Program-made: the position numbers and the translations under genes | The notes under the pieces: model-generated | What the model was told of the DNA's origin: nothing | Seen by the model: the letters and a program-made list of their open reading frames with translations, nothing else | Database searches by the model: none | Assembly: GCA_022868165.1 (NCBI GenBank) | Contig: JALHYA010000001.1 | Coordinates: 76,937-111,948 of the forward strand | Length of the DNA: 35,012 bases | Direction: 5' to 3' | From: Patescibacteria group bacterium | GTDB taxonomy: Bacteria > Patescibacteriota > Microgenomatia > UBA8517 | In this document: in pieces, positions 3,934-12,193 of the stretch | Layout of the letters: the number at the start of each line of letters is the position of its first letter | Position numbering within the stretch: position 1 is the first letter of the stretch

Positions 3934-3962
3934 ATCCAAATGAACTTGGAAAGGTATCATAC

Positions 3963-3998
3963 CTATAGTTTGACTTCGAGCTTTAGAAGTGCTATATT
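3963..3998 (+). promoter_or_regulatory. Sigma70-type promoter of the three-gene mini-operon
   Basis: CTATAG (3963-3968), one base, TTGACT (-35, 3970-3975), exactly 17 bases, TATATT (-10, 3993-3998). A perfect palindrome GGTAT-C-ATACC (3953-3963) lies just upstream and is a possible operator. The CTATAG box abutting the -35 recurs at the other two tiny-membrane-protein promoters of this window. Confidence 0.8.
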
Positions 3999-4011
3999 TG
4001 TGCTCAGATTT

Positions 4012-4026
4012 GTCCCATTCGGGGAC
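4012..4026 (+). promoter_or_regulatory. 5' leader hairpin of the mini-operon
   Basis: GTCCC-ATTCG-GGGAC forms a 5-bp stem with a 5-base loop, starting about 7 bases after the expected transcription start (near 4005). It is followed by an unstructured spacer and the Shine-Dalgarno GGGAGG (4040-4045). A hairpin near an mRNA 5' end often protects against decay; that role is inferred here. Confidence 0.5.
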
Positions 4027-4050
4027 CACACATTAACAAGGGAGGAAATA

Positions 4051-4260
4051 ATGGATTACCGGAAGCTTTTACTGAATCTGGTATTCGTTCTTGGGGTGCT
4101 CATGGTGTTCTGGGTGTTTAGGCTCATTCTGCCAGAACTGGCAGCGAAGAAGCATGTGGCCGAAAACACGGTTATTCTCGTTTTCGCTTTCCTCGCTGGA
4201 AGCGCCGCTATTTACATTCTCGTCCAGCTCTATTTACACCCCGAGCGCTTTCTTAACTAG
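4051..4260 (+). CDS. Tiny two-helix membrane protein (69 aa)
   Basis: Not recognised. 69 residues with two predicted helices (about 6-27 and 39-61) joined by a short charged loop LPELAAKKHVAENT. The start at 4051 is fixed by the strong Shine-Dalgarno AGGGAGGAAATA directly before the ATG; an in-frame ATG at 3940 lies before the promoter and is rejected. It is the first of three closely spaced small genes, each with its own good ribosome-binding site. GC is higher than in neighbours (36 of 60 at 4381-4440 in the next gene against 27 of 60 at 5041-5100), which fits recent acquisition or selection for high expression. Size and topology recall bacterial small membrane proteins that modulate larger complexes, but no partner is visible. 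Confidence 0.8.
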   Translation: MDYRKLLLNLVFVLGVLMVFWVFRLILPELAAKKHVAENTVILVFAFLAGSAAIYILVQLYLHPERFLN

Positions 4261-4291
4261 CAGGGCATCGGCCTGAACCGAGGTGAAAACC

Positions 4292-4486
4292 ATGTTCGAC
4301 AAGGATGAGCGTACACCTAGCACACTTGAACTACTCAAGAAGGTCGAGGTGGAAATCCCAGACGAACTTTCGCCTTACTATCGCCGGAAGCGCAAGGGCT
4401 GTCATTCGCGCCCAAAGCCCAAGAAAGGCCAGAAGAAGCACCGCAAATCCGGATCCAAGAAGAAGGACACCCAGGCTACGGCCTGA
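4292..4486 (+). CDS. Small very basic protein (64 aa)
   Basis: Not recognised. 64 residues. The first 30 are acidic and helical-looking (TPSTLELLKKVEVEIPDEL). Residues 31-58 carry 16 Lys/Arg out of 28 in a tail with His, Gly and Ser. Such tails usually bind nucleic acid, or the acidic membrane surface, so a nucleic-acid-binding role is a guess only. The ATG at 4292 is preceded by AGGTGA (4281-4286); an in-frame GTG at 4283 lies inside that ribosome-binding site and is rejected. It lies between two genes for two-helix membrane proteins and is surely cotranscribed with them. Confidence 0.75.
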   Translation: MFDKDERTPSTLELLKKVEVEIPDELSPYYRRKRKGCHSRPKPKKGQKKHRKSGSKKKDTQATA

Positions 4487-4500
4487 ACAAGGAGGAAGCA

Positions 4501-4683
4501 ATGGACCCACTGTCTCTAGGTGCTATGGGGGTAGCATTGACCGCTGTCGGTGGCTACACAGTAGGCTTTGCCTGGCCGATCGAGCGCACACGGGCTCGTC
4601 TGCTCATCGCCCTCGGCATTGTCATCATCGTACTCGGCTCTAGCTTCGTCCTCGCCCTCGTTATCATGGCTCAAGGAGGGTAA
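4501..4683 (+). CDS. Tiny two-helix membrane protein (60 aa)
   Basis: Not recognised. 60 residues with two helices (about 5-25 and 34-56) separated by the charged turn PIERTRAR. The first helix is glycine-rich (GAMGVALTAVGG), which would allow close helix packing or oligomerisation. AAGGAGGAA sits 5-6 bases before the ATG. It is the last gene of the mini-operon, 14 bases after the basic-protein gene. It shows no clear sequence similarity to the first membrane protein of the operon, so it is not a simple duplicate. Confidence 0.77.
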   Translation: MDPLSLGAMGVALTAVGGYTVGFAWPIERTRARLLIALGIVIIVLGSSFVLALVIMAQGG

Positions 4684-4711
4684 GCCCGAGAAGCTAACAG
4701 TAAAAGGATTC

Positions 4712-4748
4712 GGCAGAGTCCTATCCCTAACAAGGGTCCTTCTCTGCC
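4712..4748. terminator. Stem-loop between convergent operons
   Basis: GGCAGAG (4712-4718) pairs with CTCTGCC (4742-4748); inside it CCCT-AACA-AGGG makes a second small stem. On the minus strand it is followed by CCTTTTAC, on the plus strand by no T-run. It probably ends minus-strand transcripts and may protect the 3' end of the plus-strand mini-operon mRNA. Confidence 0.5.
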
Positions 4749-4752
4749 AGCA

Positions 4753-5694
4753 CTACCTACTAAATATCCCCGATACAAACCCCGACATAACTGCAAAATC
4801 GCTTACAAATTGCAAAATTATTCCCCACAACCCTACTTTCCAATCCTTAAATTCAACAGAAACTTTCCTAAAAGCCCAAAAAATATAAATTACCAATCCC
4901 AGCCATACGATAGGGAAAAGGGGAGTACTAAAAAAGTATATTATGAGGCCAATTCCCAATATATACCTGGCAAAGATTGATAATGCCTTAATATTGTGCG
5001 ACGAAAGGCCTTTTTTGGGAAACAACCATATTTTTGATTTTGCATCCCCACTGGCGTATTCGTAAATTTTCTTAGCAAACTCACCTAACAAGACCGGCAT
5101 CCCCCACTCCACCAGAGCACTTTTCACGCGTGCTAGCTTTGCTCCGACCTTGATTAACCTAAAATTGAAGCCTGTATCCTCTGCAGTTTTCACGCTATTT
5201 TCGGGGAATCCCCCAACCAGTTCCCAAATGTCTTTTCTAAAAGCAATCGAGCGTGTGGAAGGAAGAAAATTTATGTCGAATTTTGAAGGCAAAACGCCCA
5301 AAAACACACTGGAGGCTTTTTGAAATGCCGTATCCCCTACCATTCGATAGAAACCGGCTACAACATCCACTTCAGGATACTCAAAGGGTTCACTAATTTC
5401 CTGAAGCCAGTCTTTATGGGCAATGCAGCCAGCATCCGTCATGGCAATAATATCATTTTTGGCCAGCTCAATCGCCAAATTTCTGCCTTGAGCAATAGAG
5501 CATTTCTGCACCAAAAGCCTGATTCTCCCGTTTTTTTTCTGAAAATGCCGGATTATCTCAACCGTTTTATCGGTAGAGCCCCCATCCACAATCACAATCT
5601 CCTCGGGTTTTTTTGTCTGCCCCAAAAGCGCCTCCAAAAGTCCCCCAATACTCCCTTCTTCGTTCTTAACCGTCCCACAAACCGATACTTTCAT
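4753..5694 (-). CDS. Family 2 glycosyltransferase with C-terminal membrane helices
   Basis: 313-residue GT2 enzyme. The catalytic domain shows VSVCGTVKNEEGSIGGLL (3-20), EIVIVDGGSTDKTVEII (32-48) and the acidic MTDAGCIAHKDWL. About 70 C-terminal residues form two or three membrane helices, as in membrane-attached GT2 enzymes that elongate surface glycans at the inner face. It starts inside the stop of the GT4 gene (ATGA overlap), so the two are translationally coupled. It is the last gene of a three-gene operon. Substrate unknown. Confidence 0.88.
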   Translation of the reverse strand: MKVSVCGTVKNEEGSIGGLLEALLGQTKKPEEIVIVDGGSTDKTVEIIRHFQKKNGRIRLLVQKCSIAQGRNLAIELAKNDIIAMTDAGCIAHKDWLQEISEPFEYPEVDVVAGFYRMVGDTAFQKASSVFLGVLPSKFDINFLPSTRSIAFRKDIWELVGGFPENSVKTAEDTGFNFRLIKVGAKLARVKSALVEWGMPVLLGEFAKKIYEYASGDAKSKIWLFPKKGLSSHNIKALSIFARYILGIGLIIYFFSTPLFPIVWLGLVIYIFWAFRKVSVEFKDWKVGLWGIILQFVSDFAVMSGFVSGIFSR

Positions 5695-6779
5695 AATGCT
5701 TCTTTATAAATTTCTAGTGTTTCTCTGGCAGTTTTTCGCCAGTTATATTTCCTAGCCTCTACTCTTCCCTTCCTTACCATTTTCGCAGATAATTTTGTGT
5801 TTGTGATAACTTTTTCAATCGCCGATGCGATTTGAGTTTCACTTCTGGGGTTTACCAAAATAGCCGCATCGGCTGCAATTTCGGGAATAGAGGCTGAATC
5901 GGACGAAATAACAGGTGTGCCTGCCACGAAACCCTCGAGAACCGGAAAACCAAACCCTTCTATCAAGGTCGGATAACAAATACAGGCGGCCGATCTAATT
6001 AAAGCCCAAAGTGTTTCCTCATTCACATAGCCGGGAAAAATTACGGCGCCACCTAGGTTTTTTCTATTTACCAGTTCTTGCAGTTTTGGCTTTTGTGTAT
6101 GGTTATCGCCCGTTATTACCAGCTTAAAATCAGGATGTTTAGCATAAACTTCCCCGAAAGCCGTTATTAAACGGTCTATGTTTTTTCTAATATCGATTCC
6201 GCCATTGTTTAAGACGTATTTCTTTTTAATAAGGCCTGGGGGAAGTTTGCCTACTCCTTTTGCTCTGGTTATTCCAGAATAAACCACGCTAATTTTGTCT
6301 TCAGGAATGCCAAACCTTTTTATCAAAATTTCCTTGGTATATTTAGAAACCGAAATTATCTTTTTTGCTTTTATGCAAGATGTTTGCATCCTTGAAACAT
6401 AAGACCATTTGGACAAAAACGGGAACTTGGCAAAGGAAAAATAGTTTTTTATTTCTAATGGAATTAGGTCGTGTACAGTTAAAACAGCGGGTACAGTGCT
6501 AAATAAAGGAACACCCACGTTGCTAGCCGCATGGAACAAATCAACACCTTCTTTTTTAAGAGCTTTCGGTAAGAGGAACTGTTCAAAAACGTAACGATTA
6601 ATGCCGCCCAAAACAACCTGCTTAATTTTCTTATATTGAATTTTAATTAGCGGCCTTTTGGAATAGAAAATTACGCATTCCACTCCTAAAGCAGCCAGCT
6701 CGGAAGATAAGTTTTTTATATATTTTCCGATTCCGACTAACTTACCCTCGGCATACCTACCATCGATTCCAACCTTCAT
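5691..6779 (-). CDS. Family 4 glycosyltransferase (GT-B)
   Basis: 362-residue retaining glycosyltransferase of the GT4 type. The N-terminal acceptor lobe begins KVGIDGRYAEGKLVGIGKY, with the glycine loop typical of mannosyl/rhamnosyl transferases. The C-terminal donor lobe has NGGIDIRKNIDRLI and the EGFGFPVLEGFVAGTPVI segment, where the E-x7-E pair binds the nucleotide sugar. Such enzymes use GDP-mannose or similar donors. It shares ATGA overlaps with the methyltransferase gene before it and the GT2 gene after it, so the three gene products probably act in stoichiometric order on one surface glycan. Confidence 0.92.
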   Translation of the reverse strand: MKVGIDGRYAEGKLVGIGKYIKNLSSELAALGVECVIFYSKRPLIKIQYKKIKQVVLGGINRYVFEQFLLPKALKKEGVDLFHAASNVGVPLFSTVPAVLTVHDLIPLEIKNYFSFAKFPFLSKWSYVSRMQTSCIKAKKIISVSKYTKEILIKRFGIPEDKISVVYSGITRAKGVGKLPPGLIKKKYVLNNGGIDIRKNIDRLITAFGEVYAKHPDFKLVITGDNHTQKPKLQELVNRKNLGGAVIFPGYVNEETLWALIRSAACICYPTLIEGFGFPVLEGFVAGTPVISSDSASIPEIAADAAILVNPRSETQIASAIEKVITNTKLSAKMVRKGRVEARKYNWRKTARETLEIYKEAL

Positions 6780-7516
6780 GTCTTTTCTGCAACAACTACT
6801 ACGTCCGATTCACCAAATATTCTTAACAAAAAGTTATCCGCATAGCTGATTAGGTTTCCAATAAACGCAAACTTGTTAGCCAACTTTACTATTATTCCCA
6901 ATGGAGGAAATATAAATAGAGATTCCCTTAAAATTCCTTCACGCTTGTCGGTATAAATTATCTTAAATCCCGAATTTTCGAACAGCCCAGTCAATCTTTC
7001 TGTTGTGTAGCGCCGTAGGTGTCCAGCCCATTTGTCGTGTTTCTGAGTTAGGCCAAGCCGAAATAACAGAGAGTTTTCTGAAGGAGCTGAGATAAATACT
7101 CTGCCCTTTTTTCTTAACAGCTGGCGAAATCTTTTTATAGCCAGTTTTTCTTTGGGAAGATGCTCTATCACCTCAGAACAAAGAATGAAATCGTATTTTT
7201 GTTTTGGAAATTTGGCTGGGAAATTCATTCTTCTGAATGAGAGTTGTCTTGTCAGACCAAATAATTTAGCGTTCTCCGCAGCTGTCCTTGTGGCATTTTC
7301 GGAAATATCTATTCCAACAACAGTTTTTCCCTTTTTGGCCAGAAAGAAGTCAATTGTTCCTACACCACAACCAATATCCAAAATCTTATTTCTTCCGATT
7401 GCGTACCGGCACGCGACTCCCAAGATGTTTCTGTAAGTAAAATTATTTTTGTCAATTATTCTTTTTTGAAGAGCAGTTATTACATGGTAAATGTCGTAGA
7501 AATTTTTCTTAGCCAT
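6776..7516 (-). CDS. Class I SAM-dependent methyltransferase
   Basis: 246-residue methyltransferase. Motif I is ILDIGCGVGTIDFFLA (45-60), followed by VVGIDIS with the acidic residue that binds the ribose, and DFILCSEVIEHL (motif IV), giving the UbiG/SAM type-11 fold. The C-terminal 50 residues are hydrophobic (FPPLGIIVKLANKFAFIG), so it may lie on the membrane. As the first gene of an operon with two glycosyltransferases it probably methylates a sugar or caps a glycan chain. The start at 7516 lies 6 bases after an extended -10 (TGATATTAT), which implies a leaderless mRNA. Confidence 0.88.
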   Translation of the reverse strand: MAKKNFYDIYHVITALQKRIIDKNNFTYRNILGVACRYAIGRNKILDIGCGVGTIDFFLAKKGKTVVGIDISENATRTAAENAKLFGLTRQLSFRRMNFPAKFPKQKYDFILCSEVIEHLPKEKLAIKRFRQLLRKKGRVFISAPSENSLLFRLGLTQKHDKWAGHLRRYTTERLTGLFENSGFKIIYTDKREGILRESLFIFPPLGIIVKLANKFAFIGNLISYADNFLLRIFGESDVVVVAEKT

Positions 7517-7522
7517 TTGCCA

Positions 7523-7531
7523 ATAATATCA
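7523..7531 (-). promoter_or_regulatory. Extended -10 promoter, leaderless methyltransferase operon
   Basis: Minus-strand TGATATTAT lies 6 bases before the ATG at 7516. No good -35 is present; the TG of the extended -10 would compensate. It is divergent to the promoter at 7563-7591. Confidence 0.6.
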
Positions 7532-7562
7532 TTTACCAAAGTTTTTTCGTTAGAAAAGTTGT

Positions 7563-7591
7563 TTGCACTTTTGTTTCATAACTTCTAAACT
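7563..7591 (+). promoter_or_regulatory. Promoter of the Pro/Thr-tail protein gene
   Basis: TTGCAC (7563-7568), 17 bases, TAAACT (7586-7591), then 5 bases to the ATG at 7597. A transcript from it would have essentially no 5' leader, and no Shine-Dalgarno is present. Confidence 0.55.
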
Positions 7592-7596
7592 AAATT

Positions 7597-8193
7597 ATGG
7601 AACAAGGCCTACATAAAAAACATAAGGACGAAGAGCCTCCTTTAATTGCTGTACGGGTAACTAACCCTGTCACCTATTTAAAAATATGGTGGAAGAAAGT
7701 AATAGGAAATGAGGGTATCTCATTTAGTTTCAAAATAAAGCCGCTTACAGCAATAGCCATTAGCGTAGTCGTTGCAAGTATCGCATTTGGGGTTGGAAGA
7801 TTTGTTATACCTTTCACTATTCCTTTTTTTGAGTCGACCAAAATATTACCCACCCCTACACCCCAACAATGGAAAGAAACAGCTTTTATCGGTACTCTTC
7901 AATATTCGACCATAACGGATAGGTACTATTTGATAGTTACTTCCTCATCTGAGGCAATTAATCTTGAAGTTCCGCAAAACATTGACCTTAAAAGCATGGT
8001 TGGCAAAAGAATTTTCGCAACAGGGAGCTATAACAAATCAATGCGCCTACTTAAAGTGGCCGACGCTAAAGATATGGAAATACTTCCTAAAAGCCCTGAG
8101 CCTGTCCCTACGACCGAGCCAACACCAACTCCAATTCCTACACCAACACCGACATTAGAACCAACACCAACACCGATTGAAAGCCCGCAATAA
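7597..8193 (+). CDS. Membrane-anchored protein with Pro/Thr-rich tail
   Basis: 198 residues, function not recognised. A basic cytoplasmic N-terminus (residues 1-48) is followed by one membrane helix (about 49-72) and an outer domain of about 90 residues with a beta-rich pattern (FIGTLQYSTITDRYYLIVTSS, then VGKRIFATGSYNKSMRLLKV). This could be a small OB-like or sugar-binding fold. The last 30 residues are PTPTPIPTPTPTLEPTPTP repeats, a typical extended cell-surface spacer and a possible O-glycosylation target. The neighbouring glycan genes make glycosylation plausible but unproven. An intrinsic terminator lies 86 bases downstream. Confidence 0.85.
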   Translation: MEQGLHKKHKDEEPPLIAVRVTNPVTYLKIWWKKVIGNEGISFSFKIKPLTAIAISVVVASIAFGVGRFVIPFTIPFFESTKILPTPTPQQWKETAFIGTLQYSTITDRYYLIVTSSSEAINLEVPQNIDLKSMVGKRIFATGSYNKSMRLLKVADAKDMEILPKSPEPVPTTEPTPTPIPTPTPTLEPTPTPIESPQ

Positions 8194-8202
8194 TTCGAAC
8201 AT

Positions 8203-8231
8203 TTGACATTAATAAAAACGTGTGCGATTAT
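8203..8231 (+). promoter_or_regulatory. Possible promoter upstream of the secreted protein gene
   Basis: TTGACA (8203-8208), 17 bases, GATTAT (8226-8231, 4 of 6 matches). If used, the leader would be about 125 bases and would include the terminator at 8280-8302. The weak -10 keeps this uncertain. Confidence 0.3.
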
Positions 8232-8279
8232 GGGCCAGGGTATATGGGCTTCGCTTTCTTCAACATAGAAAACTATATC

Positions 8280-8302
8280 AACCGCCTCTTTTGCGGTTTT
8301 TT
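8280..8302 (+). terminator. Intrinsic terminator
   Basis: AACCGC-CTCTTTT-GCGGTT followed by a run of six Ts. It should end the transcript of the 7597-8193 gene. Because it also lies before the secreted protein gene it could act as an attenuator if that gene is read from a promoter at 8203. Confidence 0.85.
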
Positions 8303-8311
8303 ATTGCTTTC

Positions 8312-8331
8312 GCACTTACACCATAAAGTGC
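8312..8331 (+). promoter_or_regulatory. Leader hairpin before the secreted protein gene
   Basis: GCACTT, 8-base loop, AAGTGC: a perfect 6-bp stem about 18 bases before the Shine-Dalgarno GGGGGG (8350-8355). The same hairpin-then-strong-Shine-Dalgarno layout is seen at the tiny membrane protein genes. Confidence 0.4.
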
Positions 8332-8363
8332 ATAAACAAAGGTGTTGAAGGGGGGTGAGAAGA

Positions 8364-9161
8364 ATGAAAAAACTAATTTCAATTTTAGGAGGATTAGTAT
8401 TGACCTTGGCTTTGGTCACTGTGGTTTCCGCAGCAAAGCCTGCTGATAATCACGCGGGTGCCGTAACCTATGGTTGGCATTTGTCTGGAGCGGTTATGCC
8501 AGTACCACCATATGGATCACTGGACATTCCTGGTTCCGATACTGCCTCAAAGTTAATTGTTAATCAACCGAACGGAAAAGTAACTACCAATGTAACTGGA
8601 GTGATGAAGGGTTTAAATCCTGACACTACTTATACCGTATACCTTTCAAATGGATATACGCCATATACTCCTCAGAGCGTGGTAGGTACATGGACATGGA
8701 CAGTATTGGGAACATATGTTCACGATATAATCATTACTACCCAAAATCCTGATGGTACATTCTCAGGAACAGGAGGATGGCCATCCGGTGGTCTTTATCA
8801 AACTACGGAAACCATTACAGGACAAATCGTAGGTAATACAGTAACTTTTACCACGACTTATTTAGGACCCTATAACCCAGGTTACACGGTAACAGTTACA
8901 GGTACTATTAATCCTGGTGGCTCCATAAGCGGTAATTCGCCATGGGCATGGAATACAAGTGCTGGTGCAGTAAAACCTGCTTTAGGCTCAACTGGCTGGC
9001 CAGGTTTGTTGACAGGGGTAAGTACGTTTACCTTTACAACCAATAGTGGGGGTGAAGGAAGTTGGCACTACAACTTTAAGGATACAGTTCTTAAAGAATT
9101 TTCTGTTTGGATTAACGGAGCTGGTGCAACAATATTGATTAGTGATTCAATATTGTTCTAA
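8364..9161 (+). CDS. Secreted Thr/Gly-rich beta-structured protein
   Basis: 265 residues, not recognised as a named family. A clear signal peptide MKKLISILGGLVLTLALVTVVSA (cleavage probably after residue 22 or 23) is followed by a Cys-free, Thr/Gly/Ser/Tyr-rich domain with alternating hydrophobic residues typical of a beta-sandwich (GLNPDTTYTVYLSNGY, TITGQIVGNTVTFTTTYLG, VTVTGTINPGGSISG). No membrane anchor, LPxTG or repeat unit is visible, so it should be exported free or loosely attached. The start at 8364 follows a GGGGGGTGA ribosome-binding site; the GTG at 8355 lies inside that site. Strong terminators lie on both sides, so the gene is a single unit. Confidence 0.85.
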   Translation: MKKLISILGGLVLTLALVTVVSAAKPADNHAGAVTYGWHLSGAVMPVPPYGSLDIPGSDTASKLIVNQPNGKVTTNVTGVMKGLNPDTTYTVYLSNGYTPYTPQSVVGTWTWTVLGTYVHDIIITTQNPDGTFSGTGGWPSGGLYQTTETITGQIVGNTVTFTTTYLGPYNPGYTVTVTGTINPGGSISGNSPWAWNTSAGAVKPALGSTGWPGLLTGVSTFTFTTNSGGEGSWHYNFKDTVLKEFSVWINGAGATILISDSILF

Positions 9162-9179
9162 TCCAAACAAGGTTTTCGG

Positions 9180-9211
9180 AACAACCCATCGGATTTTTTC
9201 GGTGGGTTGTT
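9180..9211 (+). terminator. Intrinsic terminator after the secreted protein gene
   Basis: ACAACCCATCG pairs with CGGTGGGTTGT (11 positions, one T-G wobble) around a T-rich loop, followed by TTGTTGG. It ends about 20 bases after the stop codon of the secreted protein gene. Confidence 0.8.
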
Positions 9212-9222
9212 TGTTGGTGGCA

Positions 9223-9253
9223 CGAAGTAATTCCACTTCCGAAGTGTAATCGT
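9223..9253. repeat. 31-base imperfect direct repeat, left copy
   Basis: Matches 10328-10358 at 26 of 31 positions without gaps. It contains the inverted repeat CACTTC-C-GAAGTG. The two copies bracket the zeta-like kinase and its 55-residue partner. Confidence 0.6.
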
Positions 9254-9274
9254 AAAAAACTTGCCTATCTCGGC

Positions 9275-9292
9275 TAGTTGGTCAAACAACTA
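9275..9292. other. Small hairpin upstream of the zeta-like gene
   Basis: TAGTTG-GTCAAA-CAACTA, a 6-bp inverted repeat in the otherwise empty 9254-9320 stretch. It could be a binding site or a short RNA hairpin; nothing else is recognisable there. Confidence 0.3.
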
Positions 9293-9325
9293 TTTACGCT
9301 CAAACTAATCAATATTATACCAAAT

Positions 9326-9364
9326 TTGACCCAAAACACACGTATGTTCATATATAATATGTGT
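9326..9364 (+). promoter_or_regulatory. Promoter and possible operator of the zeta-like module
   Basis: TTGACC (9326-9331) and TATAAT (9353-9358) are 21 bases apart, too long for an ideal sigma70 promoter; TATATA at 9351 gives 19. An inverted repeat ACACGTAT (9338-9345) / ATATGTGT (9357-9364, one mismatch) covers the -10 and is a good candidate operator. The ATG at 9369 is 10 bases after TATAAT, so the mRNA would be nearly leaderless. Confidence 0.5.
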
Positions 9365-9368
9365 AAAT

Positions 9369-10085
9369 ATGAGCACAATTTCAGACAAGGCTATTGAGTT
9401 TGTCAAAAAAAGTAAAAAATTGTTTGTTAATAAGTTTGCCAGCTTAGATATTTACAGTCCTGTTAAAGACCCGATAACATTTTTCATGGCTGGAAGTCCA
9501 GGAGCTGGAAAAACAGAGTATTCCAAAGGTTTTATAGAAAACATCGAGACAGAGGAAAAGGGAGCAAGAATCGTGCGAATTGACCCTGATGAAACTCGAA
9601 AAATTATACCTGGGTATACAGGCGCAAACGCTTGGGAGATACAAGCGGCGGCCTCGTTAGCAATCGAGCCCATACTGGATCATGTTCTTCACAATAATTT
9701 AAACTTTGTTCTAGATGGAACTTTTTCTAACTACGTAAAAAGTAAAAGTAATATTGAGAGATGCATAAAACATAGTAGAAGGGTTGGTATCTATTATATC
9801 TACTTGAAACCAGAGGTTGCTTGGGCATTTACAATGCAAAGGGAAAAGCTTGATGGTAGACGTATACTTTTAGAAACATTTATAGAGGATTTCTTCTTGG
9901 CAAAAGACAGTGTTCAAAAAATCAAAGATGAGTACGGCGATAAAGTCCACCTATATTTGATCTTAAAAGATGACGCGGGTACGGTCAAAAAAACGTTGTT
10001 TGAGGTTGTCAAAATTGACAGTTATATCGATAAAAAGTACAATAATAAGGACCTTGAGGAGTTATTGAAGAAAGTCCAGATATGA
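9369..10085 (+). CDS. Zeta-toxin-like P-loop kinase
   Basis: 238 residues. Walker A GSPGAGKT (42-49), the acidic IDPDETRK (71-78) after the second strand, LDGTFS (115-120) and an Arg-containing lid QREKLDGRR (157-165) match the zeta toxin/PezT fold. Known zeta toxins phosphorylate UDP-N-acetylglucosamine and so block cell-wall synthesis; some family members are instead housekeeping or chaperone-like kinases. No epsilon antitoxin gene lies upstream; instead a 55-residue ORF overlaps the stop codon by ATGA. Start at 9369 is favoured by the promoter spacing. The autoregulatory-looking palindrome, the flanking repeats and the isolation between terminator and repeat suggest a mobile or addictive module, not proven. 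Confidence 0.82.
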   Translation: MSTISDKAIEFVKKSKKLFVNKFASLDIYSPVKDPITFFMAGSPGAGKTEYSKGFIENIETEEKGARIVRIDPDETRKIIPGYTGANAWEIQAAASLAIEPILDHVLHNNLNFVLDGTFSNYVKSKSNIERCIKHSRRVGIYYIYLKPEVAWAFTMQREKLDGRRILLETFIEDFFLAKDSVQKIKDEYGDKVHLYLILKDDAGTVKKTLFEVVKIDSYIDKKYNNKDLEELLKKVQI

Positions 10086-10249
10086 ATTTCCTAGACTTGA
10101 TTAGATTCGGCAAAAAAGACAACTTCACCAATTTTTTCGATTATCCTGCCGCGAAGAGAAAAAAAATAATTGTAAGATCAGCCAGAAGAGGGGCTGAATT
10201 ACAGTTGGCATTGGTGAAAAGATACGAGATGAAGTACGGAACTAAATAA
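10082..10249 (+). CDS. Small basic protein coupled to zeta-like kinase (55 aa)
   Basis: Not recognised. Begins MNFLDLIRFGKKDNF and has a basic helical stretch AAKRKKIIVRSARRGAELQ, ending KRYEMKYGTK. Its ATG overlaps the kinase stop (ATGA), so the two proteins are translationally coupled. No other frame or strand carries a better gene. A position directly behind a zeta-like kinase suggests an antitoxin, regulator or cofactor, but it does not resemble epsilon or PezA that I can tell, and coupling after rather than before the toxin is unusual. Real gene status rests on the perfect overlap and an amphipathic, charged composition. Confidence 0.65.
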   Translation: MNFLDLIRFGKKDNFTNFFDYPAAKRKKIIVRSARRGAELQLALVKRYEMKYGTK

Positions 10250-10327
10250 CGTACTTTCTTGCGTTGCTTAACAACAATTTTCTTCAATTAAGTCTTACAA
10301 GCTAGATTGTGCGATGCCCGCCCTTTG

Positions 10328-10358
10328 CGAAGCTATTCCACTCCCGAAGTGGAAGCGT
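10328..10358. repeat. 31-base imperfect direct repeat, right copy
   Basis: Partner of 9223-9253 (26 of 31 identical). Here the core is TTCCACT-CCCGA-AGTGGAA, a perfect 7-bp hairpin, and outer CCCGCC (10319-10324) / GGCGGG (10370-10375) bases could extend it into a longer stem. Confidence 0.6.
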
Positions 10359-10398
10359 GGAATTAAATCGGCGGGTGGAAAGAATTGGAGAAAAAGCT

Positions 10399-10466
10399 GG
10401 GGTGGGGAGAGGAAACGGGACACAAAATGGAATGAATCCAAATGTGTGCGTAACTTCGCCCCACCC
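10399..10466 (-). terminator. Branched terminator of tiny membrane protein gene, copy 1
   Basis: On the minus strand GGGTGGGG (10466-10459) pairs with CCCCACCC (10407-10400), followed by CAGCTTTTTC. The large loop holds a second stem: ACACA/TGTGT (10420-10424 with 10043 offset, i.e. 10443-10447) and TGGA/TCCA (10428-10431 with 10437-10440). It starts 14 bases after the stop codon of the 10480-10695 gene. Confidence 0.65.
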
Positions 10467-10479
10467 TTTTTCGAACCTT

Positions 10480-10695
10480 TCAGTGGCTGATCTTGTGATA
10501 GCTGGCGTTCGCCTTGAGCACCATAAGGGTAACGAAAACCCCCAACATGGCAAAGCTGATGGCAAATGCCGTGCCGAGCCGCACAAGCTGCCAGACGTCA
10601 TTGATGTCGACATCAAACCCGACCCAGCTGGCGAACAGCGTCCGAATGGCCAGAATGATGGCGACAAAAACGGGAACCCAGACAAGATCTTTCAT
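10480..10695 (-). CDS. Tiny two-helix membrane protein, paralog 1 (71 aa)
   Basis: Not recognised as a named family. Two helices (about 4-25 and 42-61) joined by an acidic loop GFDVDINDVWQLVRLG. It is a paralog of the 11247-11462 product: shared positions include an Arg and Phe at the end of helix 1, Gly-x3-D in the loop, QL-x2-LG before helix 2, MLG-x-F inside it and KA-x2-S after it. Start at 10695 is set by GGAGG (10702-10706) on the coding strand. GC is high (35 of 60 at 10561-10620). It is a monocistronic unit with its own near-consensus promoter, 5' hairpin and branched terminator. High expression is likely; function unknown. Confidence 0.85.
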   Translation of the reverse strand: MKDLVWVPVFVAIILAIRTLFASWVGFDVDINDVWQLVRLGTAFAISFAMLGVFVTLMVLKANASYHKISH

Positions 10696-10701
10696 TGCAG
10701 G

Positions 10702-10740
10702 CCTCCTTAAGGTGCGAATTCCCTATTTAAGGGTAAAGGT
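10702..10740 (-). promoter_or_regulatory. Conserved mRNA leader of paralog 1
   Basis: After the -10 the leader reads hairpin CCCT-TAAAT-AGGG (10733-10721), AATTCGCACCTT, then GGAGG. From the -10 through CACCTT, 40 positions match the leader of paralog 2 with only two C/T changes near and in the hairpin, far better than the coding regions match. CCTT next to AAGG can pair weakly with the Shine-Dalgarno. Confidence 0.65.
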
Positions 10741-10776
10741 ATTCTAACATAGAAAAAATAGATATTCAACCTATAG
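10741..10776 (-). promoter_or_regulatory. Promoter of tiny membrane protein paralog 1
   Basis: On the minus strand: CTATAG (10776-10771), one base, TTGAAT (-35, 10769-10764), 17 bases, TAGAAT (-10, 10746-10741). It diverges from the extended -10 at 10802-10810; a second CTATAG (10780-10785) lies between the two promoters. Confidence 0.82.
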
Positions 10777-10801
10777 TGGCTATAGATATTCTCCCCTATT
10801 T

Positions 10802-10810
10802 TGCTATAAT
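10802..10810 (+). promoter_or_regulatory. Extended -10 promoter, leaderless start of 10818 gene
   Basis: TGCTATAAT is a perfect extended -10. The ATG at 10818 begins 7 bases later, where transcription itself should start. There is no Shine-Dalgarno and no good -35. Confidence 0.7.
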
Positions 10811-10817
10811 CTCCCAT

Positions 10818-11147
10818 ATGTCCAAACAGGAAAGGGAGACATTCGAGCCGCAAGACCCCACGGCGGAGCTCTTTTGGGAAATAGATTTAAAACAGCTTAA
10901 TTCCCTTGTGGAAGGCTTGTTTAACTACAAAAATTTTCAAAGACTCCGAGAGGACCCTGGGGGCGCTCCCCTACCTTTTGATTTTGTTGCTTATTATCAG
11001 GAAACTTGCGAACAGATAGAGTATTACCTTTTTGTGGAAAAAACCGAGGAAAAGGGAAAATTTTACCTTACCGTCTCGCGCGGAGCTTCTCCTGTAATAA
11101 GAGATATCTTAGGAAGTAATCTACCGCCTGTCAGGTTTTCTTCTTAA
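10818..11147 (+). CDS. Hypothetical soluble protein (109 aa)
   Basis: Not recognised. 109 residues, acidic, soluble, without signal peptide: MSKQERETFEPQDPTAELFW, then a helical DLKQLNSLVEGLFNYKNFQRL, a loop DPGGAPLPFDF and an alternating beta pattern QIEYYLFVEKTEEKGKFYLTVSRG. It could be a small alpha/beta domain. The ATG at 10818 is chosen because TGCTATAAT lies 7 bases before it; a GTG at 10776 lies upstream of that promoter. It is sandwiched between the two paralogous tiny membrane protein genes, which run the other way. Confidence 0.72.
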   Translation: MSKQERETFEPQDPTAELFWEIDLKQLNSLVEGLFNYKNFQRLREDPGGAPLPFDFVAYYQETCEQIEYYLFVEKTEEKGKFYLTVSRGASPVIRDILGSNLPPVRFSS

Positions 11148-11159
11148 ATGAAGAGATAG

Positions 11160-11231
11160 GGGATGGAGTGAACGGAAGCATGCTTGGAGGCAAGAAATGC
11201 CATCTAGGCACACAACCATCCACCCCATCCC
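11160..11231 (-). terminator. 3' stem-loop of tiny membrane protein gene, copy 2
   Basis: GGGATGGAGTG (11160-11170) pairs with CACCCCATCCC (11221-11231), 11 positions with one G-T wobble. The loop holds GGCA-AGAAA-TGCC (11189-11201) and the palindrome AAGCATGCTT (11176-11185). No clean T-run follows on either strand, so it may act mainly as a 3' stabiliser. It lies between convergent genes. Confidence 0.5.
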
Positions 11232-11246
11232 TTGCCCGGGAGGCTC

Positions 11247-11462
11247 CTAGTTCTGGCTCCCAATCGCCTTCGAGATGACGGCAAAAGAGAAGCCGCCCAG
11301 CATGATCAGGCTGAGACCGAAGAAGAGACCGAGTTTGGCCAGCTGTTGGCCATTGTTGACGTCGATCACTTCGAAGTTCAGCCCGAGCGCCACGAACATC
11401 CATCGGATGATGGTGAGTATGGCGACAAGCGCCACAATCCAGAGAACGCTCCGCCGGAACAT
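11247..11462 (-). CDS. Tiny two-helix membrane protein, paralog 2 (71 aa)
   Basis: Paralog of the 10480-10695 product and of the same length. Two helices (about 6-27 and 45-65) flank the loop NFEVIDVNNGQQLAKLG. The N-terminus MFRRS would put the start inside by the positive-inside rule. The start at 11462 follows GGGAGGTGAAAG on the coding strand. In this copy the leader CACCT can pair with AGGTG of the ribosome-binding site (loop TGGG), which would hide it. It lies directly behind the ferric-reductase-like gene but has its own promoter. Function unknown; a small regulator or subunit of a membrane complex is a reasonable guess. Confidence 0.85.
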   Translation of the reverse strand: MFRRSVLWIVALVAILTIIRWMFVALGLNFEVIDVNNGQQLAKLGLFFGLSLIMLGGFSFAVISKAIGSQN

Positions 11463-11466
11463 CTTT

Positions 11467-11506
11467 CACCTCCCAAGGTGCGAATTCCCTGTTTAAGGGT
11501 AAGGGT
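11467..11506 (-). promoter_or_regulatory. Conserved mRNA leader of paralog 2, SD-masking hairpin
   Basis: Hairpin CCCT-TAAAC-AGGG (11499-11487), AATTCGCACCTT, then CACCT-TGGG-AGGTG (11480-11467), which includes the Shine-Dalgarno. The 5-bp stem could make translation respond to temperature or to a binding factor. Confidence 0.55.
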
Positions 11507-11542
11507 ATTCTAACACGGAAGAATCACTATTTCAACCTATAA
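11507..11542 (-). promoter_or_regulatory. Promoter of tiny membrane protein paralog 2
   Basis: On the minus strand: TTATAG (11542-11537), one base, TTGAAA (-35, 11535-11530), 17 bases, TAGAAT (-10, 11512-11507). The TATAG box overlaps the stop codon of the ferric-reductase-like gene. Confidence 0.82.
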
Positions 11543-12193
11543 TCCAGATGGCTTTCGGAAGAGATTCCAAAGCTTATATATGCTTATTGCCGAAACCACA
11601 GCCACCGCGAACCACCAGAAATAAACAAAGGGAGGAAAGTGGGAATCGGTGCCTATAAAGTAGCTATGTATGGCAATCAGAAAAAACACGAAATAATTTA
11701 AGATATGGAACTTTCGCCAATGGTCTCTCCACCATGGTTCGGTTCTAAGAAAAACGGCTAAAACAGCCGCGCTTACCAGCCAAAAGCCCACCCTGCCAAA
11801 AGTATAAAAAAATTCGGTCCTTGTTGAGCAAAGCACGCAAAAAGCCGTAAAAACGTAGAAGGGGTCAAAAACTCTCCTTGCAAAGAAATTAAACGTCAAA
11901 AATAAGAGCGGGTGTATCACAATAAGCGCGTAGGCAATTGGCCCTTCGATGATATGAAATTTAAAAACCCAAGGCCCCAATTTCTCTATTAGTTTGGGCA
12001 TCAAACTTCCCAAAACTATCTGGAAAAAAATCATGGTAAAGGCAACGGTGCCTACAATTCTTTGAAGAAAATTCATCAAGATTGTCTTATTGGCTAAAGC
12101 TAGCTTCCATGGGGTGTCCGAAAAAACAGTGATTGGTCCCAATAAAAGTAAAACCAGCCAGACCGCAATCCAGAAATAAGATTTTTTAAACAT
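11537..12193 (-). CDS. Ferric-reductase-like haem membrane protein
   Basis: 218 residues with about six membrane helices. Two His pairs, H80/H94 and H163/H176, each 13-14 residues apart on facing helices, fit the bis-haem site of the ferric reductase-like transmembrane domain (YedZ/MsrQ, NOX/FRE). In that family it passes electrons across the membrane. No flavin or NAD domain is fused and no MsrP partner is in the window, so the electron donor is unknown. The start is ATG at 12193; a longer frame to 12232 reads through the tRNA and is rejected. The ATG lies 4 bases from the tRNA 3' end and has no Shine-Dalgarno, so it is probably translated from the processed tRNA-mRNA transcript. Confidence 0.82.
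   Translation of the reverse strand: MFKKSYFWIAVWLVLLLLGPITVFSDTPWKLALANKTILMNFLQRIVGTVAFTMIFFQIVLGSLMPKLIEKLGPWVFKFHIIEGPIAYALIVIHPLLFLTFNFFARRVFDPFYVFTAFCVLCSTRTEFFYTFGRVGFWLVSAAVLAVFLRTEPWWRDHWRKFHILNYFVFFLIAIHSYFIGTDSHFPPFVYFWWFAVAVVSAISIYKLWNLFRKPSGL

Follow-up and report, generated by a model that had tools for sequence, protein, structure and literature searches.

What is the function of the short word, here called the TATAG box, that stands against the -35 hexamer of three units of small genes in the window (the whole stretch of DNA analysed, 35,012 nucleotides, part of contig C5 of an 821 kb Patescibacteria genome of the Microgenomates group, in 25 contigs and 94% complete)? The first-pass annotation had read the three units as a coregulated regulon of highly expressed small membrane proteins, possibly an undescribed stress or envelope system. 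The analysis below points to an undescribed gene switch, one that would also act on many genes other than those for tiny membrane proteins.

The three units of the window

The boxes were located by direct reading and exact pattern search, and the core promoters and the second CTATAG by direct reading, as follows:

3962-3969, plus strand: unit 1 box CCTATAGT, abutting the -35
3970-3998, plus strand: unit 1 core promoter TTGACT-N17(TGC)-TATATT, with TTGACT at 3970-3975 and TATATT at 3993-3998
10770-10777, minus strand: unit 2 box ACTATAGG, the reverse orientation of CCTATAGT
10741-10769, minus strand: unit 2 core promoter TTGAAT-N17(TGT)-TAGAAT, with TTGAAT at 10769-10764 and TAGAAT at 10746-10741
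10780-10785, unstranded: second CTATAG, in the divergent region common to unit 2 and the leaderless-type ORF 10818-11147 (plus strand)
11536-11543, minus strand: unit 3 box ATTATAGG, one mismatch to ACTATAGG
11507-11535, minus strand: unit 3 core promoter TTGAAA-N17(TGT)-TAGAAT, with TTGAAA at 11535-11530 and TAGAAT at 11512-11507

The box, the -35, the spacer of exactly 17 bases and the -10 were thus read in all three units where they had first been described. All three also have an extended -10 (TG-N-TA; TGC in unit 1, TGT in units 2 and 3), a feature absent from the first-pass annotation. The further claim that no other promoter carries the box held for the exact pattern inside the window and failed elsewhere in the genome, where variants exist. 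Opposite unit 2, the ORF at 10818-11147 encodes a 109-aa orphan and its ATG lies 7 nt after its -10 TATAAT (10805-10810); the operator region at 10770-10785 may be common to this ORF and unit 2.

The transcribed parts of the units are listed below; leader hairpins were identified by direct reading and folding.

4012-4026, plus strand: unit 1 leader hairpin GTCCC-ATTCG-GGGAC
4051-4260, plus strand: unit 1 first gene, 69 aa, two hydrophobic helices, GC3 0.61, orphan
4292-4486, plus strand: unit 1 second gene, 64 aa, basic C-terminus, without a hydrophobic helix
4501-4683, plus strand: unit 1 third gene, 60 aa, hydrophobic, without a Pfam match
4684-4760, plus strand: unit 1 3' stem-loop region, fold -19.6 kcal/mol
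10721-10733, minus strand: unit 2 leader hairpin CCCT-TAAAT-AGGG
10480-10695, minus strand: unit 2 gene, 71 aa, two helices (model helices 6-26 and 34-70), GC3 0.73
10394-10475, minus strand: unit 2 long 3' stem-loop, fold -48.7 kcal/mol
11487-11499, minus strand: unit 3 leader hairpin CCCT-TAAAC-AGGG
11247-11462, minus strand: unit 3 gene, 71 aa, two helices, GC3 0.80, paralog of the unit 2 gene
11156-11231, minus strand: unit 3 long 3' stem-loop, fold -50.6 kcal/mol

The three small ORFs of unit 1 form an operon; the other two units contain a single gene each. The leader hairpins with 5-base loops, the strong Shine-Dalgarno (SD) sites and the 3' stem-loops reported for the units were recovered in every one of them. 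The description of their products as two-helix proteins applies to the first genes (69, 71 and 71 aa) and not to the basic middle ORF of unit 1. The combination of strong promoters, strong SD sites and high-GC3 genes would fit high expression. The unit 2 and unit 3 proteins are paralogous, with 37% identity, and their leaders and promoters are 84% identical across 67 nt. Because these units are tandem duplicates, they were counted together, and the independent cases are two, not three.

Searches with the 71-aa and 69-aa proteins returned no relatives beyond their own genome, only weak matches (E 0.001-0.01) over about half the length, and Pfam gave no usable match for the unit proteins. A two-sequence AlphaFold model of the unit 2 protein consists of two helices (pLDDT 73, pTM 0.40) and was too poor for a fold search. 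The Rfam scan of the window returned tRNAs only.

Distribution and placement of the box

The 821 kb genome of origin contains the exact pattern once at each of the three units and nowhere else. The reversed control pattern occurs twice, so the own-genome count alone is weak evidence. Only unit 1 carries the box among the near-consensus promoters of the genome (n=17), and the six intergenic copies of CCTATAG do not exceed the Markov expectation of 8; the word is found in one spacer and directly after one -10. The box was rarer among other genes (7/439) than among high-GC3, SD-led genes (4/24, p = 0.0014), a comparison in which the 4 include two genes of the finding itself and some of the 7 are divergent neighbours with one common site. 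Boxes of the form CCTATAA were located with a profile built from relatives: two belong to further TTGA promoters, and a third site is weaker. They precede a tandem pair of 46-48 aa proteins, a 104-aa ORF and, for the weak match, a 155-aa protein. The tandem pair (locus L068, contig C14, about 9850-10281) lies behind a CCTATAA-TTTGAC promoter and has the motif GQGLVEYA, from which we take these proteins to resemble Flp-type pilins.

Among 286 Patescibacteria genomes, the pattern CCTATAG-N-TTGA-N19-TANNNT gave 42 matches vs 4 for reversed controls, and 22 genomes were positive. A stricter pattern retrieved 81 stretches from 84,980 species genomes: about 60 were in Patescibacteria (mostly Levy-, Woese-, Gottesman- and Daviesbacteria and WWE3) and 19 carried titles from outside the group, about the chance level; all others were titled as Patescibacteria or were untitled bacteria, of which several proved identical to genomes of the class. 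Matches in metagenome-assembled genomes are subject to their assembly. When one mismatch was allowed in the 187 genomes of the class, about 200 matches were obtained vs about 30 controls, and the changes were structured: CCCATAG, CCTATAA, or a missing first C combined with a final G. The last base was G in 12/17 sites that had lost the first C vs 1/42 otherwise, and this variant is best read as the site in reverse orientation, ACTATAGG, which is the orientation of unit 2 and, with one mismatch, of unit 3. Among 150 promoters picked solely by TTGACW-N17-TATAMT, without regard to the box, 28 contained CTATAG, CCATAG or CTATGG, vs 2.4 expected from column shuffles; some copies lay upstream of the -35 and others within the spacer.

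With the box placed between the -35 and the -10, 83 matches were found vs 5 controls, nearly all with a normal spacer though the pattern allowed much more; with only the box and the -10 fixed, the summed matches were about 280 vs about 110 controls. The gap between box and -10 was allowed to range from 4 to 34 nt. In 49 of the 148 listed placements it was 22-23, which sets the box against the -35 as in the window units, and in 29 it was 4-6, directly upstream of the -10. The -35 hexamers beside the box mostly match the consensus at 4-5 of 6 positions, and are more often perfect when the box sits 2-5 nt further up. By this reading of the sequences, CCTATAGT is the element; it can be used in either orientation and favours two slots, one abutting the -35 and one just upstream of the -10. 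The imperfect -35 beside the box leans towards activation and the spacer slot towards repression.

The first-pass annotation had named random occurrence before unrelated genes as an outcome that would count against it. The motif proved far from random and lies in promoters, and the genes behind it are diverse. The data support the box as a real, conserved regulatory element, and the three units very probably share a regulator.

Genes behind the box

Gene calls in relatives were made with our own simple rules on SD sites and length. Of 143 box promoters, 75 lead to SD-led genes (mean GC3 0.52 vs local GC 0.42, median 123 aa). At another 43 the ATG follows the -10 by about 8 nt (GC3 0.32, median 231 aa); helices are few in this second group (n=42). 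Outside the genome of origin, short (80 aa or less) two-helix proteins make up 3 of 56 SD-led targets, and any helix at all was predicted in 22 of these 56 vs 334 of the 948 genes of the original genome. What stands of the proposed regulon is therefore the control element common to the units, and not a membership confined to small membrane proteins. The 112 downstream proteins scanned for families included three DEAD-box helicases, a few methyltransferases, two cold-shock-domain proteins and many single matches; the remainder we take to be mostly orphans. Across genomes, the box recurs in the promoter spacers of genes for SLT-like secreted proteins and for Xer-like (XerC/D-like) recombinases; both assignments come from sequence motifs.

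A 5' hairpin was found in 19 of 59 SD-led leaders of relatives vs 7.3 in shuffles: it is only moderately common there, a common but not defining part of the design. Two order-level relatives (L048, L050) have box promoters before GC-rich secreted proteins of about 200 aa that are similar in layout. Many box genes in relatives of the class start 5-11 nt after the -10 without an SD site (for example L165, L174, L201, L217 and L233), which suggests that leaderless transcripts are common in Microgenomates. At four other loci (L160, L176, L213, L234) the box promoter is followed by 100-300 nt without a clear ORF; such stretches are possible undescribed RNAs, and the Rfam scan of these loci gave no match except tRNAs elsewhere in L176.

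Boxes also occur in groups of two or three, 10-25 nt apart, in ORF-free stretches of up to about 1.3 kb (L384, L388, L389, L393, L394, L400-L403). These lie near yebC-like or xer-like genes and often contain CGTGAAA words, GATATAGTTTGATATAG and a DnaA-like box. The resemblance to oriC led to a replication origin or DnaA-type box being considered; it was rejected, as GC skew runs monotonically through the clusters in three genomes.

Interpretation and comparison with known systems

Because the word is short, tolerates either orientation and has two docking slots on core promoters, it is read here as the operator of a regulator. The TATAG box is probably bound by a putative regulator that recognises a specific DNA sequence and would be shared by much of the Microgenomates lineage and a few neighbours such as WWE3. 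From the sequences we infer that this protein acts with the housekeeping holoenzyme: it would recognise CCTATAGT in either orientation, tolerate the variants CCCATAG and CCTATAA, and dock on housekeeping-sigma promoters in the slot abutting the -35, the case in every unit of the window, or immediately before the -10. In the -35 slot it would lie next to sigma region 4, recruiting or blocking; in the spacer slot it would more simply be a block to polymerase. In the genome of origin, the three units would be members of its regulon, with the site in units 2 and 3 inherited by tandem duplication. A bolder version, in which a lineage-wide regulator, confined to Microgenomates and their relatives and unlike those described in bacteria, uses one octamer to activate at the -35 and repress in the spacer, and controls fast-evolving accessory small secreted or membrane proteins, RNA helicases, cold-shock-domain proteins and Xer-like recombinases, is doubtful.

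Counted against the operator are the rarity of the box in its own genome and its sharp abutment to the -35, where polymerase or sigma may make direct contact. If the box were wholly such a contact, so that the primary sigma or the alpha C-terminal domain read it as an upstream extension of the -35 without a separate regulator, its sharp placement in many genomes and the one sigma match in the genome of origin would be accounted for. The same octamer, however, has a second favoured slot by the -10 and occurs in reverse orientation, and most strong consensus promoters lack it, which makes this reading unlikely. A dedicated alternative sigma factor for the box is unlikely and was rejected: the 94% complete genome has one Sigma70_r2 match, and the count is the same in several other genomes with the box. 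Nor does the box serve as an extra -10 (TATAGT), a word that the reverse-orientation sites and the CCCATAG variants do not contain.

The dedicated regulon of highly expressed tiny membrane proteins, for stress or envelope, draws on the two-helix proteins behind all three exact sites of the genome, on the CCTATAA variant at the Flp-pilin-like pair and on short two-helix targets in a few relatives (L051, L023, L179). Such targets are scarce elsewhere, helices are not clearly enriched, and the box also stands before genes for DEAD-box helicases, cold-shock-domain proteins, methyltransferases and Xer-like recombinases; the regulon in this narrow form is quite improbable. A target of a DNA methyltransferase or a site of a nucleoid protein, acting epigenetically, would suit a near-palindromic short word usable in both orientations, but the genome of origin has no genome-wide excess of it and two sharp placements relative to the promoter are unexpected for a methylation word, leaving this very improbable. 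Least credible of all is that chance and tandem duplication suffice, an ordinary sigma-70 promoter having been duplicated along with its gene: the 84% identical leaders of the paralogous units 2 and 3 and the two control matches in the genome speak for it, and at the level of the lineage it is refuted by an enrichment of at least tenfold across unrelated genera and genes. Duplication alone accounts for units 2 and 3 and not for the lineage data. Spread by phages or plasmids was also rejected, as the 50 matches in a viral collection do not exceed a rough chance expectation.

To our knowledge, gene regulation in Patescibacteria, few of which have been cultured, is almost undocumented, and a search of open-licence papers found no description of the box and no promoter or operator study for the group. 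With a short word as the mark of a regulon in dozens of genera, phylogenetic profiling has a starting point for finding the regulator. The box also lets anonymous orphan genes be grouped by shared control, and would help to pick out real small genes in these genomes.

Among known systems, UP elements and extended -35 elements share with the box a position directly upstream of the -35. UP elements are A-tract rich and confined to that side; the box is not an A-tract, is sequence-specific and also occurs downstream of the -35. Simple repressor operators in core promoters, such as LexA-type boxes, resemble it as short near-palindromes that lie within the spacer or abut the hexamers, with varying position and in either orientation, and the box likewise overlaps the core promoter at variable places. 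Its sequence differs from the GAACNNNNGTTC type, which these genomes contain as a separate element. Palindromes of the form GTGAACNNNNGTTCAC fill the spacer of consensus promoters in four cases (G078, G377, G057, G081) and are LexA-like operators distinct from the CCTATAGT box. Class II activator sites (CRP or FNR at about -41.5; lambda CI at PRM) also abut or overlap the -35 on its upstream side, with little variation in distance, as the box does in its peak at a gap of 22-23, and the adjacent -35 is often imperfect in both. The box differs from them in the centre of its octamer, near -39, in half-sites much shorter than those of CRP and FNR, and in its second slot within the spacer, with a peak of its own at a gap of 4-6.
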